Shown here: piece by piece, positions 24,350-25,275 of the stretch
How positions within the stretch are numbered: position 1 is the first letter of the stretch
How the letters are laid out: each line of letters begins with the position of its first letter
Origin: Erysipelotrichaceae bacterium
GTDB taxonomy: Bacteria; Bacillota_I; Bacilli_A; Erysipelotrichales; Erysipelotrichaceae
DNA: 47,431 bases
NCBI GenBank assembly: GCA_017441765.1
Contig: JAFRVK010000003.1
Coordinates: forward strand, 1 to 47,431
Direction of reading: 5' to 3'
Translations under genes and position numbers: made by a program
The notes under the pieces: generated by a model
What the model was told of the DNA's origin: nothing
Seen by the model: the letters and a program-made list of their open reading frames with translations, nothing else
The model's database searches: none

Positions 24350-24433
24350 CGTTCGAACCCTCCTTTTTCATTTTATTAAAAAATCAGACGTTTTTAAATG
24401 CGCATTGTATAATTGAATCAGGAGGAGTATTTC

Positions 24434-25222
24434 ATGAATAATAATACAAATAAAGTCCTGGCGGCGATCGATCAGAATCCTGAGATCCTGAACCAGCTGC
24501 TCAATGGCGGCGATGGCGATATGACCAGAGGCGGAGCAGTAAATCCGCTGGTCAACATCCTGGGCAATGTCGATAAGAATGAACTGCTGCAGGTTTCCCA
24601 TGAAGTTGCAGAGAATCCGGCAGTCAAACTGTTCCTGGCTTCTTCCGGAAGTCTGGATGCGAAAGATCTGCTGAACTATGTTGGCGGTGTCGGCGGTACC
24701 AGAGCATCTGCCAACCCGGCGGTACGCGCATTATTCGATGGCAGGCTGGATCTGAAGGAGATCCTGATCCTGATCGTTCTTTTGAAGCTCTTCAAGAGAA
24801 AGAATTCCAACACCTACAACAACTCGGCGATTGGTCTGTTAGGTTCTTTGCTTGGCTACAATACCGGCTACAACAGCGGTCTGTTCAACATCCTTGGCGG
24901 AAACAACTATTCAAACGGTCTGTTCGGCAACAGCAGTTATTCCAACGGACTCTTCGGCAACAGCTATTCTTCCGGTCTGTTCGGCAATACCTACAATACC
25001 AGCTCCGGCTTAGGAAACTTCCTGGGTCTGACCAGCGGTTACGGAAGCAACTCGAGCCTGTCGAATCTGATGAATTTCGTCAATGGCAACTACAACAACA
25101 ACTCCCAGTATCATACGCTCTGGAATATCCTGAATCAGGCAGCGCCTTCCGCTGTCAGCAGCAATGGACTGGTCAGCGCATCGGGCCTGTTCTCGGTACT
25201 GGCTCATATGATGGGATATTAG
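24434..25222 (+). CDS. Asn/Gly/Ser/Leu-rich protein with GLFG repeats
   Basis: A 262-aa protein I cannot assign to a family. Residues 1-115 are ordinary and mostly helical. A hydrophobic stretch (LKEILILIVLLKLF, about 104-122) follows. Residues about 125-230 are low complexity: Asn, Gly, Ser, Tyr, Leu and Phe dominate, with GLFG at residues 162-165, 172-175 and 181-184 in a 9-10 residue period (SNGLFGNS type) and a related GLFN before. The C terminus is again mixed. There is a strong SD (GGAGGAG) and a TATAAT 14 bases before it. It is monocistronic. Possible roles include an assembling surface or spore-like coat component; none is shown. Confidence 0.75.
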   Translation: MNNNTNKVLAAIDQNPEILNQLLNGGDGDMTRGGAVNPLVNILGNVDKNELLQVSHEVAENPAVKLFLASSGSLDAKDLLNYVGGVGGTRASANPAVRALFDGRLDLKEILILIVLLKLFKRKNSNTYNNSAIGLLGSLLGYNTGYNSGLFNILGGNNYSNGLFGNSSYSNGLFGNSYSSGLFGNTYNTSSGLGNFLGLTSGYGSNSSLSNLMNFVNGNYNNNSQYHTLWNILNQAAPSAVSSNGLVSASGLFSVLAHMMGY

Positions 25223-25245
25223 AATCTTATCTGATTCATAACGAA

Positions 25246-25275
25246 AGATCCGGTTTAAAAACCGGGTCTTTTTTT
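25246..25275 (+). terminator. Terminator of the GLFG-repeat protein gene
   Basis: Stem AGATCCGGTTT / AAACCGGGTCT followed by seven T. The T run merges into the -10 box of the next gene. Confidence 0.82.

Follow-up and report, generated by a model that had tools for sequence, protein, structure and literature searches.

Does a bacterial gene that encodes regularly spaced GLFG motifs specify a protein acting in the manner of the FG-nucleoporins, or do the repeats serve another end? The question is raised by P0001, a gene located in a 47,431-nt stretch of an Erysipelotrichaceae genome (contig JAFRVK010000003.1, positions 1–47,431; hereafter the window). A preliminary description of the locus had likened the product in composition to the cohesive FG-nucleoporins, of which GLFG repeats are the hallmark, and had recognised no protein family.

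The P0001 locus

P0001 is an intact open reading frame on the forward strand of the window (24434–25222), running from an ATG at 24434 to a TAG at 25222 and encoding a protein of 262 aa that belongs to an unnamed Erysipelotrichaceae family. The strong Shine-Dalgarno sequence described earlier is present (AGGAGGAG, 24420–24427, forward strand), 6 nt ahead of the start codon, and the gene indeed has its own intrinsic terminator, a structure of 13 pairs (25243–25272, forward strand) supported by consensus. As to the promoter, there is a perfect TATAAT −10 hexamer (24408–24413, forward strand), a probable promoter element, but its −35 partner, CAGACG, agrees with the consensus at only three of six positions and the pair is absent from the promoter-scan list; the claim that P0001 has a promoter of its own is thus plausible rather than proven. 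The sequence TTGTATAA likewise lies upstream of the gene in two other loci (L011 and L012).

In the window P0001 is flanked by a divergent gene and a same-strand gene, which we take from their sequences to be gpsA-like and NUDIX, respectively. We considered and rejected a conserved operon: neighbouring genes vary by clade, and the gpsA and NUDIX genes accompany P0001 only in near-identical species. Since the neighbourhood is not conserved across the family, gene context does not name a pathway. A phage or plasmid origin was also rejected, there being no PHROG match, phage or plasmid record, viral contig or BFVD fold match. One copy of P0001 is present in its genome, a draft of 1.5 Mb in 65 contigs that is 77% complete. 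We infer that its product is cytoplasmic.

Predicted architecture of the protein

Three parts can be distinguished in the AF2 model. The N-domain (residues 1–124; 24434–24805, forward strand) is helical and carries two degenerate EF-hand-like motifs (SSGSLDAKDLL and FDGRLDLKEIL); its pLDDT values are mostly 78–90, except at about residues 26–35. It is followed by an uncharged sticker-and-spacer tail (residues 125–205; 24806–25048, forward strand), in which residues 128–191 have pLDDT values of 25–45, all below 50, and are predicted to be disordered. The C-terminal element (residues 206–262; 25049–25219, forward strand), conserved in sequence across members and modelled with pLDDT values of mostly 72–87, comprises a pair of helices together with the third of the degenerate EF-hand-like motifs, SNGLVSASGLFSVL. 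With a deeper alignment of 47 rows the model was no better (pLDDT 65.8 vs 67.9). DSSP assigned isolated bridge residues at position 74, which lies in an N-domain loop, and close to the C-terminus at positions 241 and 247; a pairing of the C-terminal loop with the N-domain loop would fit these positions of the model. The preliminary reading would have been refuted by a known protein family with an ordered fold across the repeat region; none was found.

Helix 107–124 (EILILIVLLKLFKRKN) contains a strong hydrophobic run followed by KRK, and peptides of the GLF/GLLG type can be membrane-active, so that this helix and the LLG/GLF motifs might insert into a membrane face. The hydrophobic core, however, comprises only about 12 residues, the Kyte-Doolittle 19-mer maximum is 1.56 (values above 1.6 were reached by only 5 of the 50 ORFs scored), the helix is replaced by LDIKDLLALITLMSGN in distant members of the family, and AF2 places it beside the N-domain with high confidence. 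Membrane association appears improbable.

The tail repeats

The motifs reported earlier, GLFG at residues 162, 172 and 181 and GLFN at 149, were all confirmed, as was the uncharged, low-complexity, FG-like composition of the region that contains them. On the forward strand the stickers of the tail are GLLGSLLG (residues 134–141; 24833–24856), the most conserved one and found also in DUF937 proteins, GLFNILGG (149–156; 24878–24901), the three GLFG motifs (162–165, 24917–24928; 172–175, 24947–24958; 181–184, 24974–24985) and GLGNFLGL (192–199; 25007–25030). Successive GLF motifs are 13, 10 and 9 residues apart. Residues 125–205 are composed of 22% G, 18.5% S, 18.5% N, 15% L and 10% Y, and not a single K, R, D or E occurs across residues 125–262. 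Repeat detection revealed a degenerate tandem array with a 27-nt unit (24898–24987, forward strand; 3.2 copies, 75% match), the copies of which encode the same residues with different codons. When the residues of the tail (125–205) were shuffled 20,000 times, three GLFG motifs were never obtained (shuffle mean 0.03), nor were four GLF motifs (shuffle mean 0.17). Since no shuffle reaches three GLFG, the repeats are not explained by chance.

The P0001 family and its variation

In line with the earlier statement that no family is recognised, P0001 matches no model of Pfam, NCBIfam or PHROGs. Sequence and profile searches of the PDB, Foldseek searches against PDB and BFVD, and VIA-align yielded no usable match; the sole fold match in the PDB (E = 5.3) is due to chance. 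A candidate with an E-value of 0.005 (L028) proved to be an unrelated membrane protein. The homologue search proposed in the preliminary description did uncover an unnamed family of at least 45 members, seen only in genomes of Erysipelotrichaceae. Profile matches were obtained in 60 of 272 such genomes, some of them confined to the tail and corresponding to DUF937 proteins. At the level of the order, all of the matches listed fell within the Erysipelotrichaceae, and a class-level sample of 296 genomes returned P0001's own genome as the sole match. The named relatives are Erysipelotrichaceae or Solobacterium MAGs, from ruminant guts where the source is stated.

In the family alignment (47 members) the common plan of N-domain, tail and C-terminus is kept, and P16, L66, G72, L79 and G103 of the N-domain are invariant. 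The tail varies widely in both length and spacer composition: spacers are made of N, G, S and Y in the genus of P0001 and are rich in Q, P and T in many members of another genus. Two to three GLFG motifs occur only in close relatives of P0001 and in one other genus, whereas the remaining members have one or none, and where GLFG is scarce LLGxLLG or LFGxLFG stands in its place (for example LLGSLLGG, SLFGNLFG or LFSNLLGG). The number of repeats varies as well: tails of most members contain 2–7 L[FL]G motifs, compared with about 0.2–0.7 in shuffles, and in most members charged residues are few or absent. The sticker pattern is retained down to about 25% identity. GLFG itself is thus a local variant; the conserved property is a regular series of hydrophobic L-[F/L]-G stickers in an uncharged chain, of which GLFG is one spelling.

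A second, Q-rich paralog was observed in another genus at four loci (L059, L060, L061 and L088). In three of the four it lies near a gene that we take, from its sequence (MGWKDMFG...), to be SepF-like, and in three of the four it adjoins AddA/AddB-like genes.

Selection on the tail

Among three close species, dN/dS is 0.041–0.073 for the tail, 0.031–0.093 for the repeat core and 0.077–0.12 for the N-domain. The tail is thus under strong purifying selection and evolves no faster than the folded parts. Over 18 relatives, identity is 75% in stickers and 50% in spacers; low dN/dS and the better conservation of stickers than of spacers argue that the tail is functional. These values bear directly on the idea that the tail does no more than link its neighbours flexibly, its composition having drifted by repeat slippage, and that only the N- and C-terminal parts are of importance. 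Wide variation in tail length and spacer composition and the degenerate tandem array would be expected of such a linker, but a dN/dS no higher than in the folded parts, stickers that outlast spacers, repeat copies written in different codons and a pattern kept in highly diverged members would not, and we find the idea hard to sustain.

A related tail on DUF937 proteins

The genome of P0001 encodes a 242-aa DUF937 (PF06078) protein (L110:4669-5397; G000:C34:7701) with a tail of the LLGSLLG type. A search of the entire 1.5 Mb at the DNA level for the pattern [L/F][L/F]G[S/T][L/F][L/F]G gave three places: P0001, the DUF937 gene (G000:C34:8214) and a Ser-rich low-complexity frame, which was judged spurious and not a gene. 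Profile alignment of the tails of the P0001 family with those of DUF937 proteins was significant (97%, E = 9.8e-11). As the reversed tail gave an E-value of 3.3e-5 and column shuffles gave 0.6–1, composition accounts for part of the match, but not for all of it. Low-complexity tails can also come to resemble each other through convergence. Homology between the N-domain and DUF937 was rejected (profile probability 1%).

The DUF937 proteins of Erysipelotrichaceae resemble P0001 in the sticker-and-spacer tail (NTYSNPAAGLLGSLLG in L027 vs NTYNNSAIGLLGSLLG in P0001) and in a short C-terminal end of the form [DN]G..LL..L; they differ in that their N-domain is unrelated, their tail contains K, D and E (charged residues amount to 5–14%, vs none in the P0001 tail) and they occur in more genera. 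Of the 18 partial matches found in other genomes, 14 are DUF937 proteins with a sticker tail. Across the genus, a DUF937 match is present in all 15 genomes that carry the P0001 family and in 14 of the 21 that do not (p = 0.014, uncorrected for phylogeny). In the genomes read, DUF937 tails are longer (p = 0.011) and have more stickers (p = 0.004) where the P0001 family is present, again uncorrected for phylogeny. Co-variation between paired tails was not significant for the F content of their stickers (p = 0.12); for N and Q content it gave p = 0.005 and p = 0.047, respectively, phylogeny being uncorrected. Two genomes, G049 and G052 (the latter 100% complete), carry the P0001 family with no DUF937 match; DUF937 is therefore not an obligate partner. 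Searches of the literature on DUF937/YidB and on FG repeats in prokaryotes retrieved no functional account.

DUF937 proteins of other genera (L090, L091 and L093) end in the calcium-loop-like DADGDGDVMDD or DSDKDGEMMDD, whereas the sticker-tailed ones end in only [DN]G..LL; this degenerate end may be derived from a calcium-loop-like motif. In one DUF937-like protein (L137:3054-3917) the sticker tail is inserted mid-protein and is followed by K-rich and E-rich runs.

A possible function of the tail

Because it is kept by selection and is common to a second, otherwise unrelated protein, the tail of P0001 probably serves to glue proteins together. The reading we favour, with a probability of roughly 45%, is that P0001 would be a cytoplasmic scaffold or adaptor whose tail would engage in weak multivalent contacts, both with itself and with the tail of DUF937. 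A flexible uncharged loop would be held out between the helical N-domain and the conserved C-terminal helices, which possibly close that domain. The loop would carry short hydrophobic stickers, four to seven in number, of the form L-[F/L]-G and often in pairs such as LLGSLLG. These could then contact, weakly and multivalently, other copies of P0001 and the matching DUF937 tail of the same cell, and the proteins might gather into small clusters or a mixed assembly, or form a condensate for which oligomerising folded domains provide the seed. Both the binding of sticker to sticker and the meeting of the two proteins are what we infer from their tails.

The main rival is that the stickers are docking motifs, LLGSLLG and GLFG forming short amphipathic helices that sit in the groove of a folded partner (the protein's own N-domain, the DUF937 domain or another protein), so that the tail would be a multi-site leash and not a cohesive phase. 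Docking needs few motifs; the first sticker, the most conserved of all, is modelled as helical (residues 131–139, low confidence); and the exchange of F and L tolerated in the stickers is common among groove-binding motifs. Against this, no candidate groove or partner was found, and specific docking less typically involves many degenerate copies that vary in number and spacing. We regard docking as possible, though not probable.

Returning to the scaffold, a bolder and rather doubtful extension of it is that the shared modular FG-like tail is a 'glue code' by which the P0001 family and DUF937, two unrelated folded domains, co-assemble into a bacterial condensate or scaffold of their own, an independent invention of FG repeats. 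If the tails do bind each other, they would represent an independently evolved, bacterial case of the FG-repeat principle, and would offer a way into the study of DUF937, a domain that is widespread but has no assigned function. A tail of about 80 residues is small enough for dissection by NMR, and at least 45 sequences offer natural variants that have F or L in the stickers, N or Q in the spacers and 2–7 motifs.

Comparison with known systems

FG domains of Nup98 are charge-depleted and contain about 50 FG or FG-like motifs, GLLG variants among them, at one per 12 residues over 500–700 residues (PMC9579204, PMC8245513). The P0001 tail is alike in having motifs every 9–13 residues, uncharged N/G/S/T spacers, predicted disorder and a mixture of FG and LLG motifs; both charge depletion and motif density are those of a Nup98-type domain. 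It falls short in motif number and domain length, with three GLFG and about six stickers in about 80 residues, and is unlike Nup98 in being Tyr-rich, flanked on both sides by folded parts, bacterial, and part of a family in which GLFG is not conserved. The Pfam model Nucleoporin_FG (PF13634) matched 7 of the 47 family members at E ≤ 1, weakly (best 5.6e-5), and did not match P0001; matches between low-complexity sequences do not demonstrate descent, and these are best read as convergence.

Extrapolated to six repeats, below its tested range (N 26–70), the published Nup98 saturation formula predicts a saturation concentration of about 4.3 mM at 300 K, falling to 2.9 mM at 310 K; on this model the P0001 tail by itself is not expected to condense at the concentrations of a cell. 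With motifs about a tenth of those of Nup98 and an extrapolated saturation of 3–4 mM, autonomous FG-type condensation by P0001 is unlikely, unless the folded domains oligomerise. A true FG-nucleoporin-like phase formed by P0001 alone would be in keeping with the GLFG spacing of 9–10 residues, the zero charge and the N/G/S spacers, which match the density and charge depletion of Nup98; set against the 5–6 stickers, the millimolar saturation and the absence of GLFG from many relatives, it seems very doubtful. The likeness to FG-nucleoporins first proposed therefore stands for composition and predicted disorder, but not for Nup98-type autonomous phase separation, for which, on the published thermodynamics, three to six motifs are far too few.

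The G-x-[LIV]-[DSN]-x-x-[DE]-[LI] motifs of the N-domain, and the similar motif at the C-terminus, recall EF-hand or dockerin-like proteins (PF13499). However, the P0001 loops RALFDGRLDLKE and FLASSGSLDAKD are devoid of acidic residues at calcium-ligand positions 1 and 3, the protein does not show the EF-hand ligand set (acidic residues at loop positions 1, 3, 5 and 12), and the best Pfam E-values, 0.08–0.1, are far below the cut-off. Three proteins of about 101 aa from elsewhere in the family, with two EF-hand-like DGKL loops (L130:4569-4874, L131:3949-4257 and L132:4754-5059) match the N-domain alone (per-genome E of about 4e-5 to 4e-4) and have no Pfam match above the cut-off.

Prion-like or condensing disordered regions are known in bacteria, for example in Rho of Clostridium botulinum and Bacteroides thetaiotaomicron (PMC4703818, PMC10284900). 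With these P0001 has in common a disordered low-complexity segment and a gut bacterium as its source. It differs in having neither Rho nor another known enzyme domain, and in its regular hydrophobic stickers, as opposed to a plain stretch rich in N and Q. Sticker-and-spacer disordered tails are an already known kind in bacteria; the P0001 family and the tail it shares with DUF937 are new with respect to the libraries and literature searched, and what is unusual is a tail common to two unrelated folded domains.
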